Source: a virus. Taken from it: a DNA stretch of 34,165 nucleotides. The position numbers and the translations under genes are program-made. Numbering within the stretch: the first letter of the stretch is position 1; every line of letters starts with the position of its first letter. The notes under the pieces were generated by a model, which saw only the letters and a list, made by a program, of their open reading frames with translations, had not been told where the DNA came from and did no database searches. Location: IMG/VR virus record IMGVR_UViG_3300048588_000506, positions 1 through 34,165 of that record; one strand, given 5' to 3'. Shown here one piece after another: positions 1 through 27,924 of this stretch.

Positions 1-65
1 CCCCGATCCTTCACCAGCCTCACCGCCTCAAGCTTGAACTCGCGGCTGAACTTCCTTCTCTGCAT
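1..65 (-). CDS. IS3-family transposase OrfA, N-terminal fragment
   Basis: Read on the minus strand from the ATG at 65, the protein begins MQRRKFSREFKLEAVRLV and continues off the window. This is the classic start of the helix-turn-helix OrfA subunit of IS3-family transposases, which binds the inverted repeats. In these elements OrfA is usually joined to the DDE-bearing OrfB by a programmed -1 frameshift, but that region is outside the window. About 21 residues are visible. The family call is secure; the exact IS name cannot be given from this fragment. Confidence 0.85.
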   Translation of the reverse strand, partial: MQRRKFSREFKLEAVRLVKDR

Positions 66-99
66 TCCAATGCTCCAGTTCCGTTAAACACCTTATCTC

Positions 100-126
100 G
101 GTGTCCACGAAACCGGCAGCAGGCCA
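100..126. repeat. Terminal inverted repeat of IS (OrfA end)
   Basis: These 27 bp match the reverse complement of 34068-34094 at 24 of 27 positions. The three mismatches are consecutive, in the middle of the repeat. The outermost bases next to the interrupted gene are CA on this strand. Confidence 0.88.
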
Positions 127-784
127 CTATTGGGAGAGCCTGAAACAACAGGACTACGACCGCCTCATCCAATCGACCGAGAACAAGGCCGGCGAGTTTT
201 CCGAAGACCCGCGCATCCGCGCCATCATCGGTCAGGCCAAGACGACCTTCGATCTCAAGGCGCTCATTGCCCAGGGCGGCGTGGTGGTGCTCCGGCTCCC
301 GAAAGGCCAGCTCGGCCAGAAGACCACGCTCCTCGGCTCGCTATTCCTCGCCTACTTACTGTCGCTGGAGGGCAGGGGCCTGTTCCCCTTTCACGTCTTC
401 ATCGACGGCGTCCACCACTTCGACACGCCGATCGTCCGCCACCTGCTGGAAAGCCGGTACGACGTGACGGTGACGCACCGCTACCTGGGGCAGCTGACCG
501 AAGAGTTGAAGGTGGCGCTGCTCGGCAGTGCCGATCGGCGCGTCATCTTCCGCACCGGTGTCGAGGATGGCGCCTTCCTGGAGCGCACGATGCCGCACGA
601 CAATACGCGGCCGTCGCTCCACATGCTCGGCAATGGTCAGATGATGACGGTGGAAGGAAATACCATCGAATGGCACGATCGTCATCGTCCACTTCGTCGT
701 GGAAATAGGCGTCGGCTAAACAAACTTGTCAGCCAATCCAAGCGGCGATACGGTCGTGATCTTGGGGCAAAGGAAAGGACTTAA
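127..784 (+). pseudogene. HerA/VirD4-like ATPase, 5'-truncated by the IS
   Basis: The reading frame is open from inside the IS repeat to the stop at 784, so only the C-terminal part of a larger ATPase remains, about 218 native residues. The visible part looks like the second half of the ATPases seen beside type IV coupling proteins. There is a strand with GGVVVLRLPKGQLG, then a hydrophobic Walker B-like strand ending FIDGVHHFD, a sensor-like THRYLGQL and a VIFRTGVEDGAFL segment. In related proteins the Walker B strand normally ends in Asp-Glu; here the Glu position is Gly, so ATP hydrolysis would probably be lost even without the truncation. The natural start and Walker A motif are missing. 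It lies directly upstream of 808-1224 and the coupling ATPase, in the same direction. Confidence 0.6.
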
Positions 785-807
785 AGTACCAACCTGGGAG
801 GGCGGAA

Positions 808-1224
808 ATGAGGGTAAGCATCGAGCACACGGAGAAGTCGCAGGGGCTCATTTTCAAGAAGAAACTCTACGGCTTATCGCTCACGGTGACGTTCTCGGAG
901 GAAGAAAAACAGGTCATCGAAGACCGGAAACTTCACCGGACAATTATCATCGAGCGCGGCCCGCCCGCCGATGTTAACGCGGAGAAGCACGCCAACCGGG
1001 GGCTGGCCGCGAAGATCGCCACGGCCGCGATCAAGGGCGCGGACGCCAACAATTTCCATCTCACCATCGGCAAGCTCTTGAAGGGCAAGGACACCTACTT
1101 CCTGGACGAGGTGGTCGAGGCCAAGGCCTACGAGGAGGAGGTCCGGGACTCGATGCACAAGCTCAAAAGCTACATCACGCTGAGCGAGGGGATCGAGCAG
1201 AAGTCCGACAGCTTCGAACTATGA
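808..1224 (+). CDS. Conserved hypothetical protein between two ATPase genes
   Basis: This 138-aa protein starts at an ATG preceded by a strong ribosome site (GGGAGGGCGG, 2 bases before the ATG). It has no signal peptide or membrane helix. It is mixed alpha/beta with many Lys and Glu residues, and I recognise no catalytic motif. Its stop overlaps the start of the coupling ATPase by four bases (ATGA), so the two are translationally coupled. Its place between a HerA-like ATPase remnant and a TraG/TraD-like ATPase suggests an accessory role in the same DNA-transfer or DNA-pumping machine. That role is inferred from position only. Confidence 0.6.
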   Translation: MRVSIEHTEKSQGLIFKKKLYGLSLTVTFSEEEKQVIEDRKLHRTIIIERGPPADVNAEKHANRGLAAKIATAAIKGADANNFHLTIGKLLKGKDTYFLDEVVEAKAYEEEVRDSMHKLKSYITLSEGIEQKSDSFEL

Positions 1225-3185
1225 AGGACGATTGGGGAGCCCTTATCAGCTTCGCCGTCTTTGCCTTCGCGCTAGGCGTCCTTTGGGTGGCTTTCCTGAT
1301 GACGCCCGTATTCTTGGTGGCCGGCGTTCCGGTGGTGGCGTACCTCTACCACCGGAACTCCCCCAGGACGAAAGAGAAGCTGGCGCGGCAAAGGACCGAG
1401 GCGCTGTACGAACAGGCCAGGGCCATTGCGCCGCCGAACGTGGACGCGCATGCCGATAGGCTATTCGACGCACTCGATGAAACGACCAGGGACGTGGCCG
1501 CCGCCATCTACAAGTTGGAGGGCATCGACCCGCCACCCCCGCTCCCGCCCATCTGCGACAGCATCGAGGGCGCCCGCTATCGGGACCGGCTCATCAAGTA
1601 CATCAACACCGCCCACGATCAGACGGTGTCCGACGAGTTCGTGGACGCGCTCATCGAGTGCATGCCGAGGTTTCCGCCGAGCGAGGGGATATTCGAGGCC
1701 ACCGCGACGCTCACCGGGGATGAAGTGGAACGCCTCATCGCGCCGTTCTACCGGCATGACGACTTCTTCAAGTCGCTGAAGAAGACGCTCGACCGCAATC
1801 TGACGCACCAGAAGGACGTGATGCCGAGCGACTACAAGGGCGACAACGTCACCTACGCTTACCTTCGCGATACGCCGCTCCTGGACCTCGAAACGCGACG
1901 CTTCCGCATCGGCCTCAAGGCCCGAGCCGAGCACACGCAGGTCATCGCGGCATCCGGTTCAGGCAAGACCAGCCTCCTCCAGTACCTCATCCATCACGAC
2001 CTAGACGAGGACTGTTGCGTCATCGTTATCGACAGCCAGAAGCAGCTCATCGACACGCTGGCCAAGCGGGCGGTGTGGACCGATGATATCGCCTACTTCT
2101 CGCCGCGTCATAACCTGGGCCTCAACCTGTTCGACATGCCGGTCCAGGGCGAGCAGGAGATCAATGCCGTCATCGACCTCCTGGAGTACGTCTTCGCCGG
2201 GCTGATGGACGCGAAGCTAACCACTAAGCAGGCCACGCTCTTCAACTACGCCACGCAGCTGATGATGGCTTCGAAGGGGAACCTGTCGTCGCTGCGCCGT
2301 CTCTTGCGGAAGGACGGCGGGGTGATGCCGTTCGCCACCCATATCGAGAAGCTGCCGCGGAGCGCCCAGGACTTCTTTCTTAGCGAGTTCAGCCAGAAGG
2401 GATACGATTCGACCAAAGAGGAGATCATGTGGCGCATCGATTCGATGCAGCGGAACCCCGCCTTCGCCCGCATCTTCGACGCGCCCAAGAACCCGGTCGA
2501 CATGGCGTACGAGATGCGGAACCGCGATCTCATCCTGATCGACACGGACGTGGGCTTCCTCGGGGAAACCGGCTCATCCTTCTTCGGCCGTCTGTTCATC
2601 GCCCTCATCCTCCAGGCGGCTCGGCAACGAGTAGCGTCCGGCGACGTGAAGCGTCCGGTGTACCTTTTCATCGATGAATGCGCCGCCTATCTGGACGCCC
2701 GCCTGGAGACGATGATGGTCCAGGTGCGCAAGGCCAATATCGGCGTGACGCTCGCCCACCAGGACCTCGATCAGCTGCGGAAGGCCGGCATCTTGAACAC
2801 GGTCCTGGGCGGCACAGCCACCAAGTTCGCCGGTCGGCTCTCCGACGCTGACGCCCGCGTGATGGCGTCGAACATGCGGACCAGCCACGAGTTCCTGCAA
2901 AACCTCCCCCGTTACCATTTCGCGCTCAGCCGGCTGGGCGAAGCGACGGCCGACGTGTCGTTCAACACCTGGACATATGAGAAGGCGGATAAGCGTACGG
3001 ACTACGAGGGCATGGTCGCGGAGATGGAGCGGCGGTACGGCTACACCCCGCCGCCACCGGCGCCGGAAGTTGCGCCGCCACCGCTCGATCGAACGGCACC
3101 GGCACCAAGGCCGGCCCCCAGACCGAAGGCCCCGAAACCAGCGCCTCCAGTGGATGAAGAAATCCGGCCAACGAACAAATTGTGA
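1221..3185 (+). CDS. TraG/TraD/VirD4-like coupling ATPase, membrane anchored
   Basis: This 654-aa protein belongs to the HerA/VirD4 group of DNA-pumping ATPases. Two hydrophobic segments at about residues 8-42 would anchor it in the inner membrane with the ATPase in the cytoplasm. Walker A is ASGSGKTS at about 244-251, Walker B is YLFIDEC at about 480-486, and LAHQDLDQL follows near 510, in the usual position of the post-Walker B Gln motif. The C-terminus is a Pro-rich, Lys-rich tail, probably disordered. Such ATPases recruit DNA-protein substrates to a conjugation channel. Here there are no channel (VirB) genes in view, so it would have to borrow one, or serve another DNA-translocation job. 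It starts in an ATGA overlap with the preceding gene. Confidence 0.75.
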   Translation: MKDDWGALISFAVFAFALGVLWVAFLMTPVFLVAGVPVVAYLYHRNSPRTKEKLARQRTEALYEQARAIAPPNVDAHADRLFDALDETTRDVAAAIYKLEGIDPPPPLPPICDSIEGARYRDRLIKYINTAHDQTVSDEFVDALIECMPRFPPSEGIFEATATLTGDEVERLIAPFYRHDDFFKSLKKTLDRNLTHQKDVMPSDYKGDNVTYAYLRDTPLLDLETRRFRIGLKARAEHTQVIAASGSGKTSLLQYLIHHDLDEDCCVIVIDSQKQLIDTLAKRAVWTDDIAYFSPRHNLGLNLFDMPVQGEQEINAVIDLLEYVFAGLMDAKLTTKQATLFNYATQLMMASKGNLSSLRRLLRKDGGVMPFATHIEKLPRSAQDFFLSEFSQKGYDSTKEEIMWRIDSMQRNPAFARIFDAPKNPVDMAYEMRNRDLILIDTDVGFLGETGSSFFGRLFIALILQAARQRVASGDVKRPVYLFIDECAAYLDARLETMMVQVRKANIGVTLAHQDLDQLRKAGILNTVLGGTATKFAGRLSDADARVMASNMRTSHEFLQNLPRYHFALSRLGEATADVSFNTWTYEKADKRTDYEGMVAEMERRYGYTPPPPAPEVAPPPLDRTAPAPRPAPRPKAPKPAPPVDEEIRPTNKL

Positions 3186-3191
3186 TATGAT
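3183..3191 (+). promoter_or_regulatory. Extended -10 promoter, TGATATGAT
   Basis: A TGn plus TATGAT element overlaps the stop codon of the coupling ATPase gene. No good -35 box is visible at the usual spacing. Transcription would begin near 3198, giving the following Replic_Relax-type gene a leader of some 80 bases. It is the same element type that precedes many of the phage genes. Confidence 0.45.
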
Positions 3192-3279
3192 TTCAGGCAG
3201 TTGCAGGGGCGCTTATTTCTAATCACCGCCCCTCATCGCGAACGTGGCGCTCGCCCGCGAAGCCACTATCGCTGCTTCT

Positions 3280-4206
3280 ATGTCAAAACCCATCGGACGC
3301 GGCTGGTTCCATGAGAAGCCGCCCGTCGAAGAGCAGATCGACCTCAAGCCGACCGAACGCCAGGCGCGCTGGCTGCGGTTCTTGCTGCTCCACGGGCCGC
3401 TGCCGTCGTCGTTTCTGTTCGCCCTGGAGGGGGAGAAGTCAGCCACCGAATTGCGGTCAGCTCAGCTTCCCCTTCGCCGCCTCTGGCAAGGCGGTTTCAT
3501 CATCCGCCCGCATCAGCAGCGCGAGACCGAGAACTCCAACTACAACGAGTACGTGTACGACCTCTCGGAGCAGGGAAGGCGGTACCTTCGCGACCAGGGC
3601 CACTGGATCGACACCGTGCGCCCGACCGGTCCATGGGTCCATCAGCTGTTCGTGGCGACCGTCACCGCCACGGCCGATATCTTCTGCCAGCGCGAGGGCT
3701 ACCGCTACATCCCGCCGCATGAATATCTCGGTGAGCAACCTGCGACGGCTAAGGTGCCGTTCCATTGGGACGGGAAGGCCATCACTTTGTCTTTGGCACC
3801 CGATGCTGTCTTCGCCATCGACTACGGCAAGAGCTTCATCGCCTATGCCCTGGAGGCCGACCGGGACACCGAGATCAGCACGCCGAGGAGCCGCAATAAC
3901 CCCTACCGGAAGAGCGACCTCCGCTCCGTGCGCCAGTACGTTCAGTTCATCGGTCAGAAGCAGTACAAAACCGCCTACGGCCGCTCGGCCATGATGGTCC
4001 TGCTCTTCATCACGGCGAATGAAACCAGGAAGGCGCGGTTTCTCGATGTGGTCGCGGGCGAGATGTCGCCGTGCTCCTTCATCGCTGCCGGCGTCGTCCC
4101 CGAGTTCGGCAAGCCATGGAAGCCGCCGCGTCCGCTATTTCATCTGTTTGACCAGCCGCTCGACCGCGCCGGCAAGGACGGTTTTGTCATAAAGAAACCC
4201 GCCTAG
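3280..4206 (+). CDS. Replic_Relax-type protein (plasmid replication-relaxation family)
   Basis: The 308-aa protein has an N-terminal winged-helix-like section (TERQARWLRFLL ... LRRLWQGGFI, about residues 25-80). A larger domain follows with FAIDYGKSFIAYALEADRDTE at about 183-204, a nuclease-like acidic strand. This layout matches the Replic_Relax family found on plasmids and integrative elements, often beside TraG/TraD-like ATPases as here. These proteins are thought to process or bind the origin of replication or transfer. A GTG at 3244 in frame would add 12 residues; neither start has a ribosome site. I chose the ATG because the added residues look unstructured. The family call rests on overall pattern and context, not on an alignment. 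Confidence 0.6.
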   Translation: MSKPIGRGWFHEKPPVEEQIDLKPTERQARWLRFLLLHGPLPSSFLFALEGEKSATELRSAQLPLRRLWQGGFIIRPHQQRETENSNYNEYVYDLSEQGRRYLRDQGHWIDTVRPTGPWVHQLFVATVTATADIFCQREGYRYIPPHEYLGEQPATAKVPFHWDGKAITLSLAPDAVFAIDYGKSFIAYALEADRDTEISTPRSRNNPYRKSDLRSVRQYVQFIGQKQYKTAYGRSAMMVLLFITANETRKARFLDVVAGEMSPCSFIAAGVVPEFGKPWKPPRPLFHLFDQPLDRAGKDGFVIKKPA

Positions 4207-4266
4207 TTTCCTAAGCGGGTAGTTGCGGTCGGGCTGGGAGGGATGCCCGCCGGTCAATCATTGCAT

Positions 4267-4299
4267 GACCGTTGTATTCCTTCTCAAGGAACAACGGTC
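4267..4299. terminator. Hairpin between convergent genes
   Basis: GACCGTTG at 4267-4274 pairs with CAACGGTC at 4292-4299, and the inner TTCCTT pairs with AAGGAA, with a two-base bulge. No clear T-run follows on either strand. It lies between a plus-strand and a minus-strand gene and overlaps the stop of the latter, so it probably ends or stabilises both transcripts. Confidence 0.5.
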
Positions 4300-4522
4300 A
4301 CTGCGCCGATATCCAGTCGGTCGCCAGATCGGCGACCTTCGCGAGTACCGGGAGGTCGGCGTGCGAAAAGCTGTCGCCATCCTTCCAGTCGCCGTTGTCT
4401 TTGTACGAGCGGGTGAACGTGGTGTTGTAGTGCGCTTCGTTCTTCCAGATCGTGCATTTGACGTAGCCGATGCGGATGGTATGCGCGGGGCCGTTGCTCT
4501 TTGCCGGCTTTCCGTTTGCCAT
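4298..4522 (-). CDS. Small conserved protein of plasmid/ICE type
   Basis: This 74-aa protein starts at the ATG at 4522 on the minus strand behind GGAGAAGGAG, a strong ribosome site. It carries the pattern VKCTIWKN ... TFTRSYKDNGDWKDGDSF ... DLPVLAKVADLATDWI. I know this from a family of short proteins widespread on plasmids and integrative elements; their role is unknown. The fold looks like a small beta sheet plus a C-terminal helix. It is the only minus-strand gene in the left half of the window and has its own upstream region, so it may be expressed separately from the conjugation-like genes. Confidence 0.7.
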   Translation of the reverse strand: MANGKPAKSNGPAHTIRIGYVKCTIWKNEAHYNTTFTRSYKDNGDWKDGDSFSHADLPVLAKVADLATDWISAQ

Positions 4523-4898
4523 TGTACTCTCCTTCTCCAGTCACTTGCTGGGAGGGAGAGGCGGCGAAATCCTATTATGTGGCATAGTGAATGAAGCACC
4601 GTTCCACGCCTTCCCCTCTCAGCAAGCAACTTTCGACTTGGCATCTATCAGGACTGGCGACAGATACTATCTTAGATGATGTACTGGCCTCTGTGTGGGA
4701 GTTCAACCCATACACGCCACTTAGTAGCCTAGGACTAAGTGCGTCACAGAAGTCAATACACCATCTCTCCCGCTCCCTACGCCCGGCATATCTACCGAGG
4801 CGTCTAGGATGTAAGACACCAATGGCCAAAGCCACAGGGCGTAGGAAGCAGGATATCTGGTATGATTATATCAGAAGTACAAACCCGTGGAGGTAGCG
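4523..4898. other. Intergenic region with strong predicted structure
   Basis: No convincing gene lies in these 376 bp. Several perfect inverted repeats do: 4718-4725 with 4734-4741 (8 bp, extendable to 11 bp with one bulged base), 4776-4784 with 4837-4845 (9 bp), and 4823-4826 with 4831-4834. The region also holds the promoter of the minus-strand small gene and an extended -10 element at 4858. It could be a regulatory leader, an unannotated RNA or an operator region. I cannot tell which. Confidence 0.4.
4858..4866 (+). promoter_or_regulatory. Extended -10 promoter, TGGTATGAT
   Basis: TGn plus TATGAT lies about 32 bases before the ATG at 4899. Unlike the leaderless phage promoters, it leaves room for a short leader with a GGAGG ribosome site. 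Confidence 0.5.
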
Positions 4899-5498
4899 AT
4901 GGGGAATGTTCCCTATTTGGATTTTCAGGCCATCAAGCGCTCATACTCCATGGAGGAGATCATGGCGCTGACCGGCCTCGCGTTTAAGAAGGATGGAAAG
5001 TCATTCCGATGCAGCTGCCCGGTCCACAAAGGCGGGCCTCGCTCACTGGTCGTGTCGCCGGCCGAGAAGGATGACAAGGGCGACACCGGGGTGTTCTTCT
5101 GCCACGCCGCGAACGTCGGCGGCGACCGGGTGGCGCTCCTGGCGCACGTCCGCGACGCCAAGCCCTACGGCATCTTCAAGGAGCTGGCCGAAAGCCGGCC
5201 GGCCGAGACACCAAAGGCGCCGCCACCGGCGCCCGCAACAGTTCCCGAAGAGAAGGAGAAAGAAGCAAGGGGGACTGGCCTGCCACCCTTGCCCTACCTG
5301 GAAAGCGATCACGACGCTGTACGAGCTATGGGATTTCGACCAGACATCGCCAAAGCTCTAGGCATCGGGTTCGCGCCTCGCGGCCTACACAAACAGCGTT
5401 TAGCTGTTCCTCTGCGTTTAGCAGACGGCCGCTTGGCTGGGTACCTCTCCATTCCGGCGACTACGAGTGTCCAGCTCCCGCCGAAGTGGCATCTTTGA
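4899..5498 (+). CDS. CHC2-type zinc-finger protein, primase-like N-terminus only
   Basis: This 199-aa protein starts at the ATG at 4899, behind GGAGG. It has the beginning of a DnaG-like primase zinc domain: FRCSCPVH at about 36-43 and FFCHAANVGGD at about 66-76. The usual fourth ligand is not where expected (CHAA in place of CxxC), so metal binding may be altered. A Pro/Glu-rich linker follows, and then a segment like the start of a primase core (FAPRGLHKQRLAVPLRLADG, 162-181). The TOPRIM catalytic residues are absent because the protein ends too early. It may bind template or cooperate with host primase rather than make primers itself. Confidence 0.65.
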   Translation: MGNVPYLDFQAIKRSYSMEEIMALTGLAFKKDGKSFRCSCPVHKGGPRSLVVSPAEKDDKGDTGVFFCHAANVGGDRVALLAHVRDAKPYGIFKELAESRPAETPKAPPPAPATVPEEKEKEARGTGLPPLPYLESDHDAVRAMGFRPDIAKALGIGFAPRGLHKQRLAVPLRLADGRLAGYLSIPATTSVQLPPKWHL

Positions 5499-5524
5499 GC
5501 GCTTTCGGGCGCTCTTTTCTTTTG
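5497..5524 (+). terminator. Rho-independent terminator
   Basis: GAGCGC pairs with GCGCTC around a six-base loop (5497-5514), followed by TTTTCTTTT. It overlaps the stop codon of the zinc-finger gene. Confidence 0.85.
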
Positions 5525-5680
5525 TGCTTAATGCCTGTGGCGAAAAAGTGACCAACGGAGAATTGATTTCTACTCACCTTTCATCATCGCGCATCCCAGA
5601 ACGTTATAGAGCAGCATGCCAACCTTAGACGGCAGAATAATCCCGGAATAGCGTCACCTGGCCAACGGAAGGAGATCCAA

Positions 5681-5821
5681 ATGGCCAGACGTAGGAGAAG
5701 GAAAGCCGGTGCGGTCAAGAAGACGTACCGCCGCGCCAAGCGCGCTATCAAGAGCGTCACGCCGTTCGCTATCATGCGCCGCACTATCAGGCGGCACGAA
5801 CGACGCGGCTTGGGGTGCTAG
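5681..5821 (+). CDS. 46-aa highly basic protein
   Basis: The ATG sits 6 bases behind GGAAGGAG, one of the best ribosome sites in the window, and the frame runs to TAG at 5819-5821. The protein begins MARRRRRKAGAVKKTYRRAK. About 20 of its 46 residues are Arg or Lys, with hardly any acidic residues. It is flanked by a terminator on each side, so it is a single-gene unit, with 156 bp of otherwise unremarkable DNA before it. A nucleic-acid-binding or condensing role, protamine-like, is likely from composition alone; I recognise no family. Confidence 0.7.
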   Translation: MARRRRRKAGAVKKTYRRAKRAIKSVTPFAIMRRTIRRHERRGLGC

Positions 5822-5843
5822 CCTCTACCGCCTTGTAGTTATG

Positions 5844-5875
5844 AACCCCGGCTCACGAGGCCGGGGTTTCTCTTT
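5844..5875 (+). terminator. Rho-independent terminator
   Basis: AACCCCGGC at 5844-5852 pairs perfectly with GCCGGGGTT at 5860-5868 around a seven-base loop, followed by TCTCTTT. It ends the small basic protein gene. Confidence 0.9.
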
Positions 5876-5965
5876 GCGGTATAAAGTAGACCGTAAACAC
5901 AAGAAGTAGCTCCGAGCTTCATTAGAGCCACTGAATCGGCGTCTGAAAACTAGACCAAAAGTAGA

Positions 5966-5974
5966 TGGTACAAT
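5966..5974 (+). promoter_or_regulatory. Extended -10 promoter, TGGTACAAT
   Basis: TGn plus TACAAT lies 29 bases before the DUF932 gene, with no clear -35 box. The resulting short leader contains a CAGGAG ribosome site. Confidence 0.55.
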
Positions 5975-6003
5975 GGAGGTAGTTCCCACAGGAGTACCTT
6001 CAA

Positions 6004-6723
6004 ATGAACGGATTGATGCTACACGTCGGCGCTGCCGCCGTGGATTTCGACCAGCTTCGCGCGGTCAACACCCCGGAGGCTACCGCCACCCACGTCCCGC
6101 TCCCTCACCACCATCTGGTGGAGATGGTGCGGTACGCTCTCGGCTTCTACGATCACGAGATCGTGGAGGAGCATCATGCTCTGATGCCGGACGGCCAGCG
6201 CTACTTCGGCCTCATGTCGCTCAAGTCCCCGTACGGCGACTACATCGACACGCTCGGCCTGCGCAACTCGCACGACAAATCCTTCCCCGTGGGCCTGGCC
6301 TACGGCGCCAGGGTGTTCGTGTGCGACAACACCAGCTTCATCGGCGACCAGGTCATCAAGCGGAAGCATACGGTCAACGCCAAGCGCGACCTTCCGGGCC
6401 TCGTCTCATCGGTGATCGAGCCGCTGCGGCTTCGCCGCGAGGAGCAGCATGCCTGCTTCGAGCGTTACCAGCAGGCGGAGATCGCCGACGAACTGGCCGA
6501 TCACGCCATCATGCGCATGTACCGGGAGGGAGTCATCAACCTCACCCGGATCGCCGACGTGAACTCGGAGTGGCATACGCCGTCGCACGACTGGGGCAGC
6601 AAGACGGCCTGGAGGCTCTTCAACGCCGCCACGTTCGCCTTGAAGGGCAGGGTGGCCGAGAACCCCAGCGTCACCGCCGACCTGCACAAGGTCATCGACG
6701 GCGTCTGCGAGCGGGTCCACTGA
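6004..6723 (+). CDS. DUF932 family protein (phage/plasmid-related)
   Basis: This 239-aa protein shows the DUF932 signature: LGLRNSHDKSFPVGLAYGARVFVCDN at about residues 80-105 (given in part: LGLRNSHDKS, then ARVFVCDN). An LK/IDG-type helical C-terminus follows. DUF932 proteins are common on phages and plasmids. Their function is unsettled; roles in early takeover or DNA metabolism have been suggested. The ATG at 6004 is preceded by CAGGAG. It leads a three-gene unit: its stop TGA shares one base with the next ATG, and the third gene abuts the second. The unit is bounded by the promoter at 5966 and the terminator at 7115. Confidence 0.75.
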   Translation: MNGLMLHVGAAAVDFDQLRAVNTPEATATHVPLPHHHLVEMVRYALGFYDHEIVEEHHALMPDGQRYFGLMSLKSPYGDYIDTLGLRNSHDKSFPVGLAYGARVFVCDNTSFIGDQVIKRKHTVNAKRDLPGLVSSVIEPLRLRREEQHACFERYQQAEIADELADHAIMRMYREGVINLTRIADVNSEWHTPSHDWGSKTAWRLFNAATFALKGRVAENPSVTADLHKVIDGVCERVH

Positions 6724-7165: not shown

Positions 7166-7684
7166 ATGCGCACATTTCTCTTGGCCGCAATCTTCGTCCT
7201 GACTTCTTCGCTCACGTCAGCCGAGGAAAGAAATATAGCGCTCCATGGGCATACGTACGAAATAGATATTCCCCCGACCTATGTTCTGCAGCCAGGCAGG
7301 TCCGCCAACGATGGTCTACACTTCCTATCGGCTCAATTCGGCTACCTAGCAGTCAATGCGTGGAGTCTCGAAAAGCACCTAGAGTCATGTGCGAAAGCAG
7401 GCCCAAATTGTCGTACCGGCGCAAAGACAATGGATAAGTACCTGATAGACAAGCGATTTGCTCGCGACGTGCCAGGGGTAGAATTGACCTATATTGGCGG
7501 CCGTTCGGCGGAAGGCGCGTCGATGTACCTGATTTTCGGTTTGATCGCTCGCACCAGAAGCGTCGTCTTCATAAACATGATTCACGCTAAGGAGCACGGT
7601 CAAATGCTCGACGACGCTAATATGTCCGCTTTCACAGAGATCGCCGACCACTTCTTTCGTCAGATCGAACTTGGCCGGCTGTAG
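7166..7684 (+). CDS. Exported protein of unknown function (accessory gene)
   Basis: I chose the ATG at 7166 because it gives a clean signal peptide (MRTFLLAAIFVLTSSLTSAEE, cleavage after about residue 19) behind a GGGGG ribosome site; an upstream in-frame start would bury it. The mature protein is about 153 residues with two cysteines close together (CAKAGPNC), likely a disulfide in the periplasm. Base composition is lower in GC than the phage genes around it. It lies just after a terminator and before a 180-bp non-coding stretch, the typical setting of a phage accessory (moron) gene. I recognise no family. Confidence 0.6.
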   Translation: MRTFLLAAIFVLTSSLTSAEERNIALHGHTYEIDIPPTYVLQPGRSANDGLHFLSAQFGYLAVNAWSLEKHLESCAKAGPNCRTGAKTMDKYLIDKRFARDVPGVELTYIGGRSAEGASMYLIFGLIARTRSVVFINMIHAKEHGQMLDDANMSAFTEIADHFFRQIELGRL

Positions 7685-7846
7685 TAGGTGTACGGTGCGA
7701 GAGAAGTGGCAGGTGCGCTATCCGCTCGACCTCACTTTGGGCAACGGCCGGCAGGAGTTCGATTCCTTAGGATCGGTGAAAATCCGGCGTGACTGGGTCT
7801 GGTGACCCGGCCGGGATAGTTGTGGTTCGAATCCGCACGCTTCCGA
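7685..7846. other. Non-coding stretch with a tRNA-like T-arm
   Basis: No gene is evident. At 7821-7837 there is a complete T-arm-like hairpin (TGTGG, loop TTCGAAT, CCGCA), and further upstream 7797-7807 forms a short GGGTC/GACCC-type hairpin. A second TTCGATTC motif sits at 7758-7765. No acceptor stem could be found that pairs with the bases after the T-arm, so this is not called as a tRNA. It may be a decayed tRNA or a structured leader for the following gene. Confidence 0.3.
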
Positions 7847-7855
7847 TGCTACAAT
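7847..7855 (+). promoter_or_regulatory. Extended -10 promoter, TGCTACAAT, leaderless
   Basis: TGn plus TACAAT ends 9 bases before the ATG at 7865, so the transcript would begin within a few bases of the start codon. There is no ribosome site. Confidence 0.6.
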
Positions 7856-7864
7856 TTAGGACGT

Positions 7865-8536
7865 ATGGATATTGTCTATCCGTTGAAGCGCACCGGCTTC
7901 AATCGTGAACTCCGCTATTCCCTCCGCTCCCTTAGAAACCTCCCGCACCGCCACGTTTTCATAGCCGGGGATGCGCCGTCGTGGGTTCGGAACGTGATCC
8001 ACCTACCGGTGCCGCAGCGCGGCACCAAGTACCAGAACTCCCGTGCCAACATTCTCACCGCCGCTCGCGATCCCCGCGTCTCCAGGGATTTCATCCTGAT
8101 GAACGACGACTTTTACGTGCTGTCGCGGCAGAAGACTGTGAAGCCCATGCACATCGGAGACATGGATGCCTTCATGGCGACTTTCCCGTTCCGTGGAGCC
8201 TATTGGGATTTGATGGTGAAGACGCGCTTGCTCCTCAGCGATCTCGGCATCGGCCGGCCGAAGTTCTACGAGCTCCACGTACCCTGCGTTTACAACAGGA
8301 AGAAGCTGCTCGCCATGGTGGAGCGGCTGGATGGCCACGAGTATATGATGAGGACCGTATACCATAACCTTTATGGCTCAGGCGGTAGGGGGCGGGATGA
8401 TGTAAAGAAGCACAAGCGTGCCCAGGAGATCGTGGAAACGGACTACCTGTCATCGTCGAACGGAATGATAAAGAAGCGAGCGTTCAAGGCATGGCTCAAC
8501 GAGCGGTTTGGCGAGGTGTGCGAGTATGAGGCGTGA
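7865..8536 (+). CDS. Stealth-like sugar-phosphate transferase
   Basis: The 223-aa protein starts MDIVYPLKRTGFNRELRYS and contains RDFILMNDDFYVL at about residues 75-87. These two stretches look like the CR1 and CR2 regions of Stealth proteins, which transfer sugar phosphates onto capsular or surface polysaccharides; the NDD would hold the metal or nucleotide. A frame extension to 7820 is possible but would run through the T-arm-like hairpin and the -10 element, so I start at 7865. In a phage such a gene could modify the host surface or a virion glycan. The family call is by motif memory and is moderate. Confidence 0.6.
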   Translation: MDIVYPLKRTGFNRELRYSLRSLRNLPHRHVFIAGDAPSWVRNVIHLPVPQRGTKYQNSRANILTAARDPRVSRDFILMNDDFYVLSRQKTVKPMHIGDMDAFMATFPFRGAYWDLMVKTRLLLSDLGIGRPKFYELHVPCVYNRKKLLAMVERLDGHEYMMRTVYHNLYGSGGRGRDDVKKHKRAQEIVETDYLSSSNGMIKKRAFKAWLNERFGEVCEYEA

Positions 8537-8631: not shown

Positions 8632-9018
8632 ATGGCGAAGTCGAGATTCCGCCCGCTCCATGATCGCGTCGTTGTCCGACGCGTAGAATCCGAGGAGCGG
8701 ACCCGAGGCGGCATTATCATTCCCGATACCGCCAAAGAGAAGCCGCTCGAAGGCGAAATTGTTGCGGTTGGTTCGGGTGCCCGAGACGAGACAGGCAAGC
8801 TTGTCCCGCTGGATGTCCGGTCGGGTGATCGTGTCCTCTTTGGAAAGTGGTCTGGCACAGAGGTGAAACTCAACGGTGAAGAGCTCCTTATTCTGAAGGA
8901 GTCCGACATCATGGGGATAATCGGGGGAGGAGGGAGGGTATACCTACGAGGCGGCGGCCTCGCGGGTGATCCCGGGACTGGCTCAGAGCCTCGACCGACT
9001 AAGCGCCGGCGCAAGTAG
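8632..9018 (+). CDS. groES: Co-chaperonin GroES with a basic C-terminal extension
   Basis: Residues 5-95 are a standard Gro[21 protein letters not shown], the mobile-loop contact [10 protein letters not shown] that docks on GroEL, and [20 protein letters not shown]. It closely resembles rhizobial GroES. Normal GroES is about 95-105 residues; this one has 128, ending in a Gly-rich then Arg/Lys-rich tail ([12 protein letters not shown]). No groEL follows, so it must work with host GroEL, as phage co-chaperonins do for coat protein folding. It lies shortly before the packaging and coat genes. Low-quality ribosome site; a TATAGT-type -10 lies about 40 bases upstream. Confidence 0.9.
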
Positions 9019-10090: not shown

Positions 10091-10501
10091 ATGGCGCGGC
10101 CAACGAAATACGACAAGCGCTTCATAAAGAACGTCAATGACTATCTCATTGACTGCGAGGATCAGATCGAGGAGTATCACCGTACGCGCGGCGAGAAGTC
10201 CGATACCTATGATCGCCTGGTGCACGTGAAGCTACCCACGGTCGAGGGTTTCGCTCGATACATCGGCGTGAACAAGACCACTCTCTACGAGTGGGCTGAT
10301 CGCTACGCCGCATTTTCCAACGCTTTGGAGTTGATCGTTTCGGTTCAGAAGGACCGGCTCATCAACCACGGCCTGTCCGGTGACTATAATCCGGTGATCG
10401 CGAAGCTAATACTTTCCGCCAACCATGGCATGAGCGAGAAGTACGAAGTGAAGGAGCGTCACACACTAATTCTAGATGAAGGAGAAACAGGTACGGTTTA
10501 G
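10091..10501 (+). CDS. terS: Terminase small subunit
   Basis: This 136-aa protein begins MARPTKYDKRF and contains a helix-turn-helix (VEGFARYIGVNKTTLYEWAD, about 52-71). It then has LINHGLSGDYNPVIAKLILSANH, a pattern I know from phage small terminases that recognise the genome packaging site. Its 3' end overlaps the large-subunit gene by 26 bases, the usual pairing. No ribosome site; the -10 element at 10076 implies a leaderless message. It opens the virion gene block. Confidence 0.82.
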   Translation: MARPTKYDKRFIKNVNDYLIDCEDQIEEYHRTRGEKSDTYDRLVHVKLPTVEGFARYIGVNKTTLYEWADRYAAFSNALELIVSVQKDRLINHGLSGDYNPVIAKLILSANHGMSEKYEVKERHTLILDEGETGTV

Positions 10502-11873
10502 TGACCTCGCTCACTTCACCGCAAAACAGAATAGCGCCGACCAGCTCGTACAGAGCCACAAATACGTCCTCTATGGCGGCGCCATGGGCGGCGGCAAGTC
10601 GTACTGGCTGCGCTGGCAACTCATCAAACTCCTTCTTCGCTGGGCCAAGGCTGGCCGCACAGGAGTCATCGTCGGCCTGTTCTGCGAAGACTATCCGGCG
10701 CTCAAAGACCGCCACCTTTCCAAGATCGGCAAGGAGTTCCCGTCGTGGATCGGCACCTATCACGCCGACCACAAAGAGCACGGCCGCTCATTTATCCTGA
10801 AGCCGGAATACGGCTCCGGCGTCATCGCCTTCCGCAACCTGGACGACCCGTCGAAATACCAGTCAGCCGAGTTCGCCGCCATCGGCATTGATGAGCTGAC
10901 CAAGAACCCGGAGGAGGTGTTCGACGATCTGCGCACCCGTATGCGCTGGCCTGGCATCGTCGACGTGCGCTTCCTCGCCGCCACCAACCCAGGCGGCATC
11001 GGCCATGCCTGGGTGAAGAAGAAGTGGATCGAGGGCATCCATGAGGAGAACGAGCTGGAGGCCGACGAGTTCGCCTACCTGCCGGCGCTCGCGGCCGACA
11101 ATCCACACCTCGACCCGTCCTATCTCCGCTCACTTTCCGGCCTTCCCGAGGATAAGCGCAAGGCCTTCCTCGAAGGCGATTGGGATATCTTCAAAGGGCA
11201 GTATTTCAGCGAGTGGCGGAAGGCGCTGCACGTGGTGGAGCCGTTCAATCCGCACGAGTTCTGGTACAAATTCGTCTCGATCGACTACGGCTACGACGCT
11301 CCCTCGGCCGTGTACTGGCATGGCATCGACGGCGATGGTGTCGACTACGTCTACCGCGAGCTGTACCGGAACAAGCTGACCTACGAGCAACTGGCGGCCG
11401 AGATCGTCGCCATGACACCGGCTCACGAGGAGATCGCCTATTGGGTGGCGGACCCGGCCATTTGGGCGAAGAAGGGCGAAACCGAATTGTCTGGCATGGA
11501 GTTGATGTACAACAAGCACCGGGAAGTCACCGGTCGCGGCATCAACATCGTCAAGGGCAACAATGACCGCATCAACGGTTGGAACCTGCTCCGCGAGTAC
11601 CTGAAGCCGTTCCAGCAGCAGCACCACATCATCGCCAAGCTGCAAGTGTTCTCGACCTGCACGGAGCTGATCCGCACGCTGCCGTCCCTCATCTACGACA
11701 AGCACCGCGTCGAAGACCTGGATAGCGACGGCGAGGACCACGGTGCCGACAGCGTCCGCTACGGCGTCATGTCCCGGCCGCGCAAGGCACCGAAGGCGGT
11801 GGACCCGGTGACCGCTATCCTTGCCCGCCGCAAGGCCCCGTCACCAGCTGGAATGAATGTGGAGCTGGACTAG
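10476..11873 (+). CDS. terL: Terminase large subunit (packaging ATPase-nuclease)
   Basis: This 465-aa protein has all expected motor and nuclease motifs. Walker A is GGAMGGGKS (34-42), Walker B is AIGIDE with D139 and E140, and the coupling motif is ATNP (169-172). The RNase H-like nuclease has acidic residues D270 (SIDYGYD), D326 (VADP) and D425 (HGADSVRYG). It threads DNA into the prohead through the portal and cuts it. Length is normal for the Terminase_3/Terminase_6-like groups. It starts inside the small-subunit gene and ends 18 bases before the portal start. The unbroken motifs suggest a functional protein. Confidence 0.93.
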   Translation: MKEKQVRFSDLAHFTAKQNSADQLVQSHKYVLYGGAMGGGKSYWLRWQLIKLLLRWAKAGRTGVIVGLFCEDYPALKDRHLSKIGKEFPSWIGTYHADHKEHGRSFILKPEYGSGVIAFRNLDDPSKYQSAEFAAIGIDELTKNPEEVFDDLRTRMRWPGIVDVRFLAATNPGGIGHAWVKKKWIEGIHEENELEADEFAYLPALAADNPHLDPSYLRSLSGLPEDKRKAFLEGDWDIFKGQYFSEWRKALHVVEPFNPHEFWYKFVSIDYGYDAPSAVYWHGIDGDGVDYVYRELYRNKLTYEQLAAEIVAMTPAHEEIAYWVADPAIWAKKGETELSGMELMYNKHREVTGRGINIVKGNNDRINGWNLLREYLKPFQQQHHIIAKLQVFSTCTELIRTLPSLIYDKHRVEDLDSDGEDHGADSVRYGVMSRPRKAPKAVDPVTAILARRKAPSPAGMNVELD

Positions 11874-11891: not shown

Positions 11892-13655
11892 ATGCCTAAA
11901 CGCGAATACGACCTCATCAAACAGATACGCGGAGAGATCAGCGACTTCTATTCAAAGCGCATCCCCATCACCGTCGTGCCGGAGGATCAGGGCCGCGGTG
12001 AGTTCACCTACGAGTTCTCGCAGCGCGAGACGGTCGGCCTGATCGACCTATACTACAACTCCCAATTCCGCTCGGGGAAGTATGACCGCGAGGGCCGACA
12101 GAAGATATTCCTCAACGTCGGCAAGTTCCGCACCGACGTGGCGGAGATGCAGATCGACATCGACATCGCCGACTACCGCTTCCTGCCTGATTCCTCGGAC
12201 CTGTGGTCGCCCTGGCTCATGTCCCGCGACTTCCACCAATGGGCGCAGGACCATGACTTTGCGCAGACTATCAACAGCTTCGGCGCTGACCTCCCGCGCT
12301 ACGGCACATGTGTCTCGAAGCGGGTGGGCAACGATGTCATGCGCACCTCGATCGGCCGCCTCATCAACACGCAGAACGCCGAGAGCCTGAAGAAGGCGGC
12401 GCTAGGCGGCGGCTTCGTCATCGAAGCGCTTCAGATGACGCCGCACGAGATGGAGCAATATCCGGATTGGAACCTCGACGGGCTCCAGGACAGCGATCTC
12501 CAGGGCGCCGTCTACGAGCGCTATGGCCTCATCTGCCCGGCCCACATCAAGCTGGCGAAAGACCAGGAGCCCGAGGAGGGCGATTGGGACGAATGGTTTC
12601 TCGGCCTCTCCGTCATCACCACCGACATCCAGAAGAAGGAGAAGAACGGCGCTTTGGTTTTCGCCGAGAAGATCGACGAGAAGGATTTCCCGTACGAGGA
12701 GGCTCACTGGCAGCGCCAGGACGGCCGCTGGCTAGGCATCGGCGAGATGGAGAACCAGTTTATGAACCAGCTGGCCGCCAACGTCTCCATGCACCTGCGG
12801 CAGAAGTCCATGTACTGGTCCGCGAAGAAGATTTTCACCAAGACGATAGCGGAGGGGCCGAACAATCTGGCCAAGGACGTTGCCGATGGTGGTGTCGTCG
12901 ATCTTGGTGCCAACGGCTCCATGAACGTCGTCAACACCAGCACCCAGCATCTCGGCGACTTCAATTCCTTCGACAACCGCATCGAGGCGAACGCCGACAA
13001 GACCTCCTTCACATATGAGGCCGCCACCGGCGAAAGCCCGAAGGCCGGTACGCCGTTCTCTCTCCAGGTGCAGCTCGATAGGACACTCCAGAAGCACTAC
13101 GGCAAGAAGCGCGAGAACTTCGGCCTTTTCCTCAAGCGCGCCTTCTTCAATCACCAGGTCGAGATTTTCAAACGAAAGAGCCGCAAGGCCCACACGCTCA
13201 CCTTCGCCTACACCGACGACGAGGCCGAACTGCTGCGCGAGGCGATGGTGCTGGCGCACGTCTCCGAGCGGAAGATGAAGCACCTCTTGGCCGGCAAGGT
13301 GAAGCTGAAGGCCGAACTGGAGGCTGATATCCGCGAAGAGCTGTCCCGCTCGCCGTACCTGATCGTCGACATTCCGGACAGCTTCTACGACAACGCCAAA
13401 TATCACACGAAGCTCATCATCACCGGCGAGGAGCAGAACGTCGGCGCGGATATGCAGACCATGGTGACGTTGTGGCAGACCTTGCAGCAGGCGGGCGACC
13501 CGCGCGCCGAGAAGGTGTTGGAGCGCATCATGTCGTTTACCGGACAAAACCTGCGGCTCCTCGCCGGCGCTCGGCCGGCCCAAGCTGTGGCACCGGCCGC
13601 TCCCGCCGTGCCTGCCAGCCCCGTAACCCCACAATTCAATGCTACAGCGCAGTGA
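11892..13655 (+). CDS. Portal protein (probable)
   Basis: A 587-aa protein lies directly after terL and before scaffold and coat genes, which is the invariant place of the portal. The length fits podovirus-type portals. Features include a long N-terminal alpha/beta region, helical segments around 295-330 (IGEMENQFMNQLAANVSMHL), and an Ala/Pro-rich C-terminal tail that may be disordered. I see no unmistakable motif, so the call is by position, size and composition. Its 3' end overlaps the next small gene by 17 bases. Confidence 0.72.
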   Translation: MPKREYDLIKQIRGEISDFYSKRIPITVVPEDQGRGEFTYEFSQRETVGLIDLYYNSQFRSGKYDREGRQKIFLNVGKFRTDVAEMQIDIDIADYRFLPDSSDLWSPWLMSRDFHQWAQDHDFAQTINSFGADLPRYGTCVSKRVGNDVMRTSIGRLINTQNAESLKKAALGGGFVIEALQMTPHEMEQYPDWNLDGLQDSDLQGAVYERYGLICPAHIKLAKDQEPEEGDWDEWFLGLSVITTDIQKKEKNGALVFAEKIDEKDFPYEEAHWQRQDGRWLGIGEMENQFMNQLAANVSMHLRQKSMYWSAKKIFTKTIAEGPNNLAKDVADGGVVDLGANGSMNVVNTSTQHLGDFNSFDNRIEANADKTSFTYEAATGESPKAGTPFSLQVQLDRTLQKHYGKKRENFGLFLKRAFFNHQVEIFKRKSRKAHTLTFAYTDDEAELLREAMVLAHVSERKMKHLLAGKVKLKAELEADIREELSRSPYLIVDIPDSFYDNAKYHTKLIITGEEQNVGADMQTMVTLWQTLQQAGDPRAEKVLERIMSFTGQNLRLLAGARPAQAVAPAAPAVPASPVTPQFNATAQ

Positions 13656-16007: not shown

Positions 16008-16438
16008 ACAAGCGCACCCGAAGGATCATCCAGGAGATCAATAACTCCGTCCCCAAGGAGCTGCGGGAACGCCTCTTTCAGCGCGTCTTTGTGGCTCCGG
16101 ACCTGCGCCTTAGCGTCCGCGAGGCCGCGAGCGCCATGCGGGAGGAGGCGGAGAAGATGGAAGAGAGCGTGCAGCGCCGGAAGCTCGTAAAGGAGGCTGA
16201 CCGCCTCCAGAACATGATCGATGCCGGCTACTACGACACCACGGAGCTGCGCGTAGACCAGGAGGTGGCAAAACAGATCGACGCCTGGGTGAGCCAGGAA
16301 CTGGACAAGGCCATTGCCGAGGGGCGCATTCCGCACCCAAAGCATGACCGACAGTACCAGTCATTTATTCGTAAACTAAAACAAAATGGAAAAAGAAAAC
16401 AACAAGGAGAAGGGGATCAAGAGCCCGTTATCGGATGA
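16004..16438 (+). CDS. 144-aa charged helical protein
   Basis: It starts in an ATGA overlap with the previous gene. The protein is almost entirely helical and highly charged, with probable coiled coil around residues 35-75 (EAASAMREEAEKMEESVQRR). A Lys/Gln-rich C-terminus follows (LKQNGKRKQQGEGDQ). It overlaps the following gene by 53 bases, in another frame. No family recognised; role in head assembly is a guess from position. Confidence 0.58.
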   Translation: MNKRTRRIIQEINNSVPKELRERLFQRVFVAPDLRLSVREAASAMREEAEKMEESVQRRKLVKEADRLQNMIDAGYYDTTELRVDQEVAKQIDAWVSQELDKAIAEGRIPHPKHDRQYQSFIRKLKQNGKRKQQGEGDQEPVIG

Positions 16439-16685
16439 GGTAGTGCATGAGGCCGAGTTGAAGGCCGACGCCGCATTCCAGATCGACAGTGGTATAATGC
16501 AGAGGAAGTTCGCTCTTGCGTACATGCAAAAGCAACTGGCCGAGCTGCCCGTTCCGGCCGAGGATGCGCCGGAGAAGGACAAGCAGGCTTACGCGCGGGA
16601 AAAGGTGAAGATCGACGCCATGGAGGCGGAGATCGAGCGCCAAGAGGAGTACCGCGAGTTTATAAGAGACACCATCCACGTATGA
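16386..16685 (+). CDS. 99-aa charged helical protein
   Basis: The ATG at 16386 lies within the preceding gene, in a different frame, and the stop overlaps the next start (ATGA). It is acidic overall, helical, with a C-terminal coiled-coil-like EAEIERQEEYREFIRDTI. The DNA contains a perfect TGGTATAAT at 16490-16498 whose final AT begins an in-frame ATG (residue 38). A shorter product from that internal start is possible but would need the transcript to begin upstream of it. Function unknown. Confidence 0.55.
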   Translation: MEKENNKEKGIKSPLSDEVVHEAELKADAAFQIDSGIMQRKFALAYMQKQLAELPVPAEDAPEKDKQAYAREKVKIDAMEAEIERQEEYREFIRDTIHV

Positions 16686-17029
16686 GGAAGTTTCTATCAC
16701 ATAATCTCACCAGCCATATGGCAAAGCCAAAAGATGACGCAGTCGTGGTCGTCCGTTCGGACGGCAAGGAGTTCCTTATCAAACGCGACCTCGTGGCCGA
16801 GCATGTCAATCGCGGCTTCAAGGTGAAGAACGAGGCCGACATGCCGAGCGAGGAGGAGTTGAGCAAGGCGGTCGGCTACGGCGGGCCGAAGCCTGATGCC
16901 GACAAGGGTACCACCGGCGAGGGCAACCCGGAGGGCGGTGACGAGGCTACCGTTCCAGAAGAGAAGCCGAAAGCCAGAACGGCGAGCAGCAACAAAGACT
17001 TGCGGCGCACGCGAGCCAAGCGGAGATAG
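16682..17029 (+). CDS. 115-aa hypothetical protein with disordered tail
   Basis: It begins in an ATGA overlap. An in-frame ATG twelve codons later (MAKPKDDAVVVV) could be the true start, as the first residues look unstructured. The middle carries a small domain (VRSDGKEFLIKRDLVAEHV, then GFKVKNEADMPS), followed by a Gly/Glu/Lys-rich disordered C-terminus ending RRTRAKRR. The gene closes the post-coat cluster before a strong terminator. No family recognised. Confidence 0.55.
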   Translation: MRKFLSHNLTSHMAKPKDDAVVVVRSDGKEFLIKRDLVAEHVNRGFKVKNEADMPSEEELSKAVGYGGPKPDADKGTTGEGNPEGGDEATVPEEKPKARTASSNKDLRRTRAKRR

Positions 17030-26945: not shown

Positions 26946-27632
26946 ATGGCACGAGAAGAAGTAAGAGACCCATCAACCTATTACAGCATCATCGACGGGA
27001 CGTTCCGCACCCAGGTCGATCAAAACGACCCATATGCCGTCCGCCGCGAGTGGAAGGCCACGGATGGCAAGACCGGCGTGAAGTTCGAGCGCGTCGTCAC
27101 CGCTCTCATCGGCTTCATCACCGACATCTCATTCTTTGAGGGCGAGTACGGGCAGCAGATCATCATCTCTCTGGATAAGGGCGCAGACGGGAAGACGCCG
27201 AAAATCGCGCTTAACACCGCCAGCCGCGAGGCCGAGGGCTTTATGAAGCGCTTGCCGGCCATCGATCTCGCCAAGGAGGTGCGCCTTCGCCCGTACTCGT
27301 TCACCGACCAGTCGGATGGCGACGAGGTGCGCGGCATCGAGGTCAATCAGGAGGACGAGAACGGCGACTTCAAACGGAAGATCGGAGACTTCTTCCGCGA
27401 CCCCGAGACGAAAGCTTTCCTAAACGGCTTCCCGGCTCCAGAGGGCGACACCACCGACTACACCAAGGACCACTGGAAGTTGTATTTCACCAAGACCCGC
27501 ATCTTCTTGGCGGACTACACCAAGCAGAACATCATCCCGAAGATCGCGGTGACGGAGCACCCGCAGGGCACCAGCCAGGTCGAGGCGGCGGCACCAGCTG
27601 GCGAGCCGAACCCGAACGATATTCCGTTCTAG
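26946..27632 (+). CDS. Phage single-stranded DNA-binding-type protein
   Basis: This 228-aa protein ends in PNDIPF, the acidic-then-IPF tail by which bacterial and phage SSBs dock host repair and replication proteins. The body is beta-rich (FERVVTALIGFITDISF, then GQQIIISLDKGADGKTPKIA), compatible with an OB-fold though not of the standard SSB type. The stretch before the tail is Pro/Ala-rich and flexible. It lies just upstream of a winged-helix gene and the RusA resolvase, forming the only clear DNA-metabolism block of the element. No ribosome site is seen. Confidence 0.65.
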   Translation: MAREEVRDPSTYYSIIDGTFRTQVDQNDPYAVRREWKATDGKTGVKFERVVTALIGFITDISFFEGEYGQQIIISLDKGADGKTPKIALNTASREAEGFMKRLPAIDLAKEVRLRPYSFTDQSDGDEVRGIEVNQEDENGDFKRKIGDFFRDPETKAFLNGFPAPEGDTTDYTKDHWKLYFTKTRIFLADYTKQNIIPKIAVTEHPQGTSQVEAAAPAGEPNPNDIPF

Positions 27633-27635
27633 GCC

Positions 27636-27884
27636 ATGCGTTACCCGAAGCCAGGGACACAGGCCGATAAGGTGCTGCAAACCCTGCTAGCGGCCGACGG
27701 CGGATGGGTGTCGAAGCAGGTGTTCGTTCGGCAGCTCTTTCTCACCCAGGCCGGCGCTCGCATCTTTGAGCTGGAGCGCGAGTACGGCTGGAAGATCGAG
27801 CACAGTGATTTCACCGACGAGCACGGCTTCCGCAGCTATCGGATCGTGCGGGAGGAGCCGCATACGATGCCACTGGCGATTTAA
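27636..27884 (+). CDS. 82-aa winged-helix-type DNA-binding protein
   Basis: Three bases after the SSB-type stop. The protein has KVLQTLLAADGGWVSKQVFV, then LTQAGARIFELEREYGWKIE and HGFRSYRIV: a helix-turn-helix followed by a beta wing. The pattern matches short phage helix-turn-helix proteins. It could regulate the neighbouring genes or assist DNA processing. There are no catalytic residues. Confidence 0.65.
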   Translation: MRYPKPGTQADKVLQTLLAADGGWVSKQVFVRQLFLTQAGARIFELEREYGWKIEHSDFTDEHGFRSYRIVREEPHTMPLAI

Positions 27885-27924
27885 TGGCGTACTCGGCCGA
27901 ATCCAATCATGCGGGGCGCGGGGG

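Follow-up and report, generated by a model that had tools for sequence, protein, structure and literature searches.

Why should a protein resembling a type IV coupling protein (T4CP) and a protein of the Replic_Relax family stand beside the packaging genes of a short-tailed phage? This question is raised by the IMG/VR virus record IMGVR_UViG_3300048588_000506, which was analysed over its whole length of 34,165 bases and is called the window hereafter. The initial annotation had noticed a TraG/TraD-like membrane ATPase and a Replic_Relax protein next to phage genes. Both were confirmed by Pfam matches and, for the ATPase, by a TrwB-like fold; terminase, portal and tail genes were found on the same contig. 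We found that the block 127-6723 is a conserved phage module made from conjugation-type parts, and neither a graft nor a misassembly.

The coupling ATPase, its relaxase-like partner and their conservation in phages

The genes at 808-4206 form one same-strand run encoding a small protein, the coupling-protein-like ATPase and the Replic_Relax protein (Table 1). First, the ATPase was examined. Its match to Pfam TraG-D_C was barely over the cut-off (22.7 bits versus 22), and a Walker A motif, GSGKT, was found around residues 246-250; PF01580 (FtsK/SpoIIIE) was not among its Pfam matches. When an AlphaFold2 model (pLDDT 84.8) was compared with the PDB, the top match was TrwB, the coupling protein of R388 (E 8.8e-12, TM-score on the target about 0.6), and HerA and VirB4 ranked below it. 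The protein thus has a TrwB/VirD4-type motor domain with Walker motifs. It also has a single long N-terminal hydrophobic segment, which starts at residue 8 and is modelled as a helix at 5-45. Such T4CPs are already held by phrog_5156, an unnamed PHROG family. Sequence and model together indicate that the open reading frame (ORF) at 1221-3185 encodes a homologue of the TrwB-class coupling ATPases with an N-terminal membrane helix.

The Replic_Relax protein scored 47.6 bits against PF13814 (cut-off 25.3), the family by which CONJscan recognises the MOBC relaxase superfamily (PMC5357655). MOBC relaxases have been described as winged-helix and PD-(D/E)XK proteins (PMC12857230). The model of the window protein (pLDDT 88.8) showed a winged helix followed by an alpha/beta domain; its fold matches were weak (best E 6.9e-3) and were led by restriction or nicking endonucleases and MarR-type winged helices. 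Y105, H133, D187, E204 and Y232 were invariant in 35 homologues, and the acidic D...E-x-[DE] motif was retained: D187 and E204 were present in all 35, and roughly three quarters had D206. NF041423, the curated MobC subfamily, was matched neither by the window protein nor by those of the loci L008 and L051; hence, the window protein lies outside the CloDF13-type subfamily. A protein bridging the two was found on the E. coli plasmid NZ_CP075635, with 31.9 bits for PF13814 and 142.6 bits for NF041423 (below the cut-off of 200). Profile comparison of the window protein with MOBC references gave only a weak match (probability 2.3%, E 0.021); the references were Pantoea and E. coli plasmid proteins, the CloDF13 record having no usable MobC ORF. 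A Mob_Pre search was uninformative, as no control matched. From its sequence, we consider the product of 3244-4206 to be a homologue of the MOBC-type relaxases, with a predicted winged helix and a putative PD-(D/E)XK-like domain. Phage relatives of this protein carry the PHROG labels 'replication initiation protein' and 'replication initiation by nicking'.

Subsequently, relatives were collected as IMG/VR contigs (G002, G003 and G005-G013) with a profile of the ATPase. Only profile queries succeeded: viral and genome collections scanned with the window T4CP, Replic_Relax and portal proteins as single sequences gave no match. The collection is biased, because every contig in it had been called viral beforehand and three of the relative records are just about 8 kb long. 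The argument for a phage module therefore rests on the records of 34-44 kb and on shared gene order. In the window, the order is T4CP, Replic_Relax, opposite-strand gene, CHC2, DUF932, TerS, TerL and portal. G002 shows T4CP, Replic_Relax, CHC2, ArdC, TerS, TerL and portal. G003 (40 kb) has an integrase, a second ATPase and a small protein, followed by T4CP, Replic_Relax, CHC2, DUF932, TerS, TerL and portal; G010 (44 kb) has an integrase and a second ATPase, followed by T4CP, Replic_Relax, an opposite-strand gene, CHC2, DUF932 and TerL. The search for phages keeping both modules together, which had been proposed as a check, was thus successful in G002, G003 and G010. In a distant group (G005-G008 and G011-G013, the G005 group), Replic_Relax stands ahead of the T4CP: a Replic_Relax-like protein, one or more membrane proteins, in some a coiled-coil protein, T4CP, a CHC2-like protein, TerS, TerL and portal. 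Since the relatives keep the same order with the phage genes, the refuting scenario considered at the outset, in which another replicon was joined here by insertion sequence (IS) recombination or misassembly, is unlikely.

The smaller parts of the module are also shared. The opposite-strand gene between Replic_Relax and CHC2 is common to the window and G010, and the minus-strand ORF 4298-4522 is a real conserved gene. The CHC2-like protein is 40% identical to that of G002 and 29% identical to that of G003. A membrane helix is kept in most of the informative phage lineages, either in the T4CP itself (window and G010) or in a neighbouring protein (G003 and the G005 group, in which the T4CP has no N-terminal transmembrane domain); in G003, it is the counterpart of the small 808-1224 protein that bears the helix.

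In the G005 group, the only group in which selection could be tested, dN (nonsynonymous divergence) of the T4CP was 0.08-0.23 and dS (synonymous divergence) was at least 2.9 or saturated. dN/dS was far below 1 for T4CP, Replic_Relax and CHC2, and these module genes are under purifying selection in that group. T4CP and CHC2 were 68-88% identical within the group, and between some of the same phages terL and portal fell to 25-41%. In the comparisons of G005 with G006 and G013, the corresponding values were 70-88% and 25-41%, a sign of module exchange or of stronger constraint.

Two contigs were not counted as carrying the module. G001 was set aside: next to the remnant of an unrelated siphophage lies a piece of an island, whose T4CP is identical to that of Phaeobacter L043. 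In G009, both genes are present but far apart, and the ATPase is very divergent. A second Replic_Relax-like protein, with a winged helix and PD...E-x-E-R...K, was recognised by eye outside the T4CP module in G005 (889-1725) and G008 (16122-16985; L023 and L027).

Islands, plasmids and known pairs of the same kind

The module had been described as typical of plasmids and conjugative elements, and close operon counterparts were indeed found on plasmids and islands. The operon of small protein, T4CP and Replic_Relax occurs at many loci of alphaproteobacterial genomes, where it is often accompanied by a recombinase of the serine or tyrosine type and by another coupling-type ATPase. The genes 808-4206 are collinear with those on the Sulfitobacter mediterraneus plasmid NZ_CP081110 (42, 33 and 35% identity). 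No terminase match was found close to the islands in the ten genomes searched, within the limits of the contig coordinates; the fetched island loci likewise contained no homologue of the query terminases. The phage T4CPs fall in several places among the island proteins in the T4CP tree, which indicates transfer of the module among islands, plasmids and phages; because its branches are long and its details unreliable, the tree was used only to show that the phage T4CPs are not one clade.

Two further observations were made on these loci. L039-L118 form a widespread, mainly Rhodobacterales island family with small protein, T4CP and Replic_Relax plus a second T4CP next to a serine recombinase, which looks like an uncharted family of integrative mobilisable elements (IMEs). 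In addition, L006 (PP438423.1, Microcystis phage Mwe-JY31) carries a Rep3 initiator, ParA, SMC/RecF-like and TPR proteins along with the T4CP/Replic_Relax pair. The Mwe-JY31 proteins examined included no recognisable phage structural protein, and this record may be a plasmid filed as a phage.

Several characterised systems resemble the module. In CloDF13 (MobB-MobC) and on the Pantoea dispersa plasmid NZ_CP045219 (T4CP followed by MobC, NF041423), a T4CP is directly followed by a MOBC-type relaxase, as in the window. These modules share with it a relaxase of probable winged-helix and PD-(D/E)XK-like fold, the D...E-x-[DE] motif, a conserved H and a TrwB-like ATPase. The window differs in its lack of an NF041423 match and in its setting, a tailed phage that has neither a VirB10 match nor a known oriT. 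Streptococcal IMEs of class 8, with a PF13814 relaxase, a VirD4 coupling protein and a serine integrase (PMC5357655), also have the relaxase next to a VirD4-type coupling protein, and the alphaproteobacterial islands are like them in often adding a recombinase, serine or tyrosine. In contrast to this class, the window has capsid, packaging and tail genes as well as CHC2 primase-like and DUF932 partners. Phage-plasmids such as P1 likewise combine phage and plasmid-like genes on one element, but the window has no ParA match and its relatives encode integrases.

The closest precedents in cultured tailed phages are pairs of a translocase and Replic_Relax reported without a function in Bacillus phages, namely Pony/Page (PMC3853050), 268TH007 (PMC9476937) and the Tyroviruses (gp17-gp18; PMC9703825). 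Here, too, the translocase gene is next to the Replic_Relax gene. In the Pagevirus Pony, a 40 kb podophage without an annotated integrase, the translocase (27096-28262) lies directly upstream of the PF13814 gene (28201-28821), as the window ATPase does. However, the Pony ATPase is of the FtsK/SpoIIIE type (PF01580, 46.2 bits) and not TrwB-class, and the Pony pair is far from the terminase genes in the deposited record (27 kb versus 0.2-2.3 kb). The hosts of the Bacillus phages are Gram-positive, and no CHC2 or DUF932 partner is annotated. FtsK-type homologues of the Pony translocase were found in 161 records. When 50,697 GenBank phage records were searched by tblastn with the T4CPs of the window and two relatives, only Mwe-JY31 was found. 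The window module is thus a new proteobacterial, TrwB-class variant of a known, unexplained translocase and Replic_Relax pair. For the conserved link of the module to packaging genes, we found no description in the literature.

Contig ends, candidate sites and neighbouring genes

The contig starts inside an IS3-family element, and 1-126 and 34068-34165 are opposite ends of one element. No target-site duplication was found (flanks CTAT and AGTG). Because the two halves have the same orientation and their flanks show no such duplication, the contig is either a circle opened at a single IS, next to which DNA has been lost, or a segment flanked by two copies of the IS. Of a second T4CP-like ATPase gene, 127-784 remains, the IS having taken away its 5' half with Walker A; at the corresponding position, G003, G010 and L051 carry intact or related homologues.

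Directly upstream of the counterpart of this gene in G003 and G010, on the same strand, is a tyrosine integrase, and G005 and G012 also carry an integrase. The initial annotation had seen no integrase and had inferred a phage-plasmid. The absence is best explained by truncation by the IS and not by a plasmid life style, since in G003 and G010 the integrase is directly upstream of the very gene that the IS cuts. ParA/CbiA partition ATPases, the partition type searched for, were matched in plasmid controls but not in the window, G003, G005, G010 or G012. With integrases in the relatives, a truncated window end and no ParA/CbiA match, the phage-plasmid inference is not supported. In the same five contigs, no VirB10 homologue was found (control plasmids matched), and DnaB_C, the only DnaB domain searched for, had no match (14 of 14 control genomes matched).

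An intergenic region beside the Replic_Relax gene, 4523-4886, contains overlapping imperfect inverted repeats with arms at 4539-4568/4602-4631, 4674-4695/4745-4766 and 4760-4784/4837-4861. Its DNA folding was far stronger than that of shuffled sequences (z -4.7, reached by 0 of 100 shuffles). It was matched by neither Rfam nor a tRNA search, at the sensitivity of the tools, and it is our foremost candidate for the site of binding or nicking. No oriT was identified in the window, where this folding region was all that turned up. The origin-like region noticed earlier at 32492 held up as a candidate origin: it contains the sole perfect DnaA box of the window (32523-32531; chance expectation about 0.26) together with direct repeats (TGTGTCACAAG/TGTCTCACAAG) and an inverted repeat that is perfect over 13 nt, and it folds better than shuffles (z -3.1). 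As for the extended -10 element described at 3183, the TG-n-TATGAT string is present, but promoter-like sites in the region numbered 2 against 3.8 expected, and it was given no weight.

Further phage genes on the contig encode a major head protein, an SU10-type adaptor and a tail fibre. Two other genes were noted. The GroES co-chaperonin gene at 8632-9018 shares 76% identity over 89 residues with the groES of a Sinorhizobium plasmid, and this likeness suggests an alphaproteobacterial host. The protein encoded at 7820-8536 belongs to phrog_7999 (unknown function; E 2.5e-57) and shows weak similarity to Stealth CR2, a sugar-phosphate transferase-like domain.

Table 1 Positions of the module genes, flanking elements and candidate sites in the window
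Feature	Position	Strand	Basis or remark
IS3-family insertion sequence end	1-126	-	5' end of first ORF (MQRRKFSREFKLEAVRLVKDR); terminal repeat (GGCAGCAGGCCA); translation
Remnant of second T4CP-like ATPase gene	127-784	+	ORF 101-784, of which 1-126 is IS; phrog_5156 positions 565-723
Small partner protein, 138 aa	808-1224	+	In islands and G003, a homologue immediately precedes the T4CP gene
T4CP-like membrane ATPase, 654 aa	1221-3185	+	Pfam, motif, AlphaFold2 model, fold match
Replic_Relax / MOBC-type relaxase-like protein, 320 aa	3244-4206	+	Pfam, alignment, predicted structure
Small conserved protein, 74 aa, between Replic_Relax and CHC2	4298-4522	-	Homologue at the same place in G010 (7353-7583)
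Intergenic region with overlapping imperfect inverted repeats	4523-4886		Candidate binding/nick site or origin
CHC2 zinc-ribbon primase-like protein, 203 aa	4887-5498	+	PF01807, 23.7 bits, slightly under the cut-off of 24.9
DUF932 protein	6004-6723	+	52% identical to the correspondingly placed G003 protein
Terminase small subunit	10091-10501	+	GP3_package, 71 bits; 50% identity to G002 TerS
Terminase large subunit	10476-11873	+	Homology
Portal protein	11892-13655	+	Homologous to the gene after terL in G005, G006 and G008
Candidate replication origin	32447-32965		DnaA box, direct and inverted repeats, folding
Other half of the same IS3-family element	34068-34165	-	3' end of second ORF; orientation as at 1-126

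What the module may do for the phage

By homology, the parts would make up a nick-and-pump machine with a primase-like partner. We tentatively suggest that the module most likely nicks and pumps phage DNA for the replication or establishment of an infecting or excised genome. The Replic_Relax protein would bind a site on the phage DNA, perhaps 4523-4886, and nick one strand; the T4CP, as a hexameric translocase, would then load on the nicked complex and pump or unwind the DNA at the inner membrane, and the CHC2 protein and a single-stranded DNA-binding (SSB)-like protein may assist conversion of the displaced strand. This role was favoured because no DnaB was found and the module keeps its place next to the packaging operon, and because of the Pony pair without an annotated integrase and the PHROG labels for nicking and initiation. 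Several points weigh against it. The role is deduced from the absence of DnaB, judged by the DnaB_C search, and from gene company, and what is known by experiment of MOBC and T4CP pairs is mobilisation (CloDF13, PMC7431656). The nearest relatives of the window T4CP are island or plasmid proteins (41% identity to L039), and the scattering of phage proteins among island proteins in the tree, instead of one clade, accords equally with a phage function and with a mobility module taken up several times. Furthermore, on inspection, the putative active-site tyrosine of Replic_Relax is not retained in G003 and G010.

The main rival, which we consider rather unlikely, is a mobilisable phage: the relaxase would nick an oriT, the phage's own T4CP would dock the DNA on the pore of a co-resident plasmid or integrative conjugative element, and the prophage would both conjugate and form virions. 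The operon of the 808 gene, T4CP and Replic_Relax in alphaproteobacterial islands with recombinases matches the IME class with VirD4, MOBC and serine integrase (PMC5357655), and the order T4CP then MobC is found on a conjugative Pantoea plasmid with virB genes. CloDF13-type plasmids bring their own, needed T4CP and are mobilised by helpers (PMC7431656). The best fold match to TrwB, the transmembrane helix of the window T4CP, ArdC in G002 and elsewhere in the genomes of G005 and G008, and the intergenic region beside the relaxase gene, with its strong folding, are also consistent with this rival. On the other hand, no VirB10 mating-pore gene was found in the phages and no oriT was identified. 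The T4CPs of G003 and the G005 group have no N-terminal transmembrane segment, which known T4CPs need, its deletion abolishing transfer (PMC7431656), although a neighbouring protein has a membrane segment. This weakens mobilisation as a reading for all of these phages. Retention of the module upstream of terS-terL across divergent lineages also suggests a role in the phage cycle. On present evidence, the element is not self-transmissible; mobilisation is possible and would need a helper, since no VirB10 homologue was found. That several integrating short-tailed phage lineages carry a working mobilisation module, and exit in virions or via the conjugation pore of another element, seems doubtful.

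A role in host takeover, exclusion or defence, in which a HerA/T4CP-type ATPase and a PD-(D/E)XK-like nuclease attack competing DNA as HerA-nuclease systems do, is improbable. HerA-NurA and HerA-DUF4297 were among the fold matches of the T4CP, and PADLOC mad8 matched the ATPase (2.6e-14). However, TrwB was a better match than HerA, Replic_Relax had no PADLOC match, only one MADS component was matched, and the partners are primase-like and not effector-like. It is very improbable that the block is a passenger without function, a plasmid fragment joined to the phage by IS recombination or misassembly. The IS3-family element at both contig ends, the missing target-site duplication and the truncated T4CP gene would fit such a chimera, but the stretch that separates the module from the phage genes showed no IS, both main ORFs (T4CP and Replic_Relax) are unbroken, and recurrence of the order in G002, G003, G010 and the G005 group largely refutes it. 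Least probable of all is that the ATPase moves phage DNA across the membrane at entry or feeds the terminase: the module does lie just upstream of terS-terL and DNA injection was proposed for the Pony FtsK protein (PMC3853050), but a full terminase is present and the nuclease and primase partners would be left unexplained.

The presence of coupling proteins and relaxases is taken as a sign of conjugation. In the several lineages of uncultivated phages described here, both stand stably beside the packaging genes. Use of T4CPs or relaxases as plasmid or integrative conjugative element markers in metagenomes will accordingly misclassify phages, and phage-finding programs may call these genes plasmid contamination. 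The function can be tested, because cultured Bacillus phages contain an analogous pair. If the pair serves replication, it would represent a conjugation-like mode of phage DNA processing; if it serves transfer, the two main routes of gene transfer would be joined in one element.

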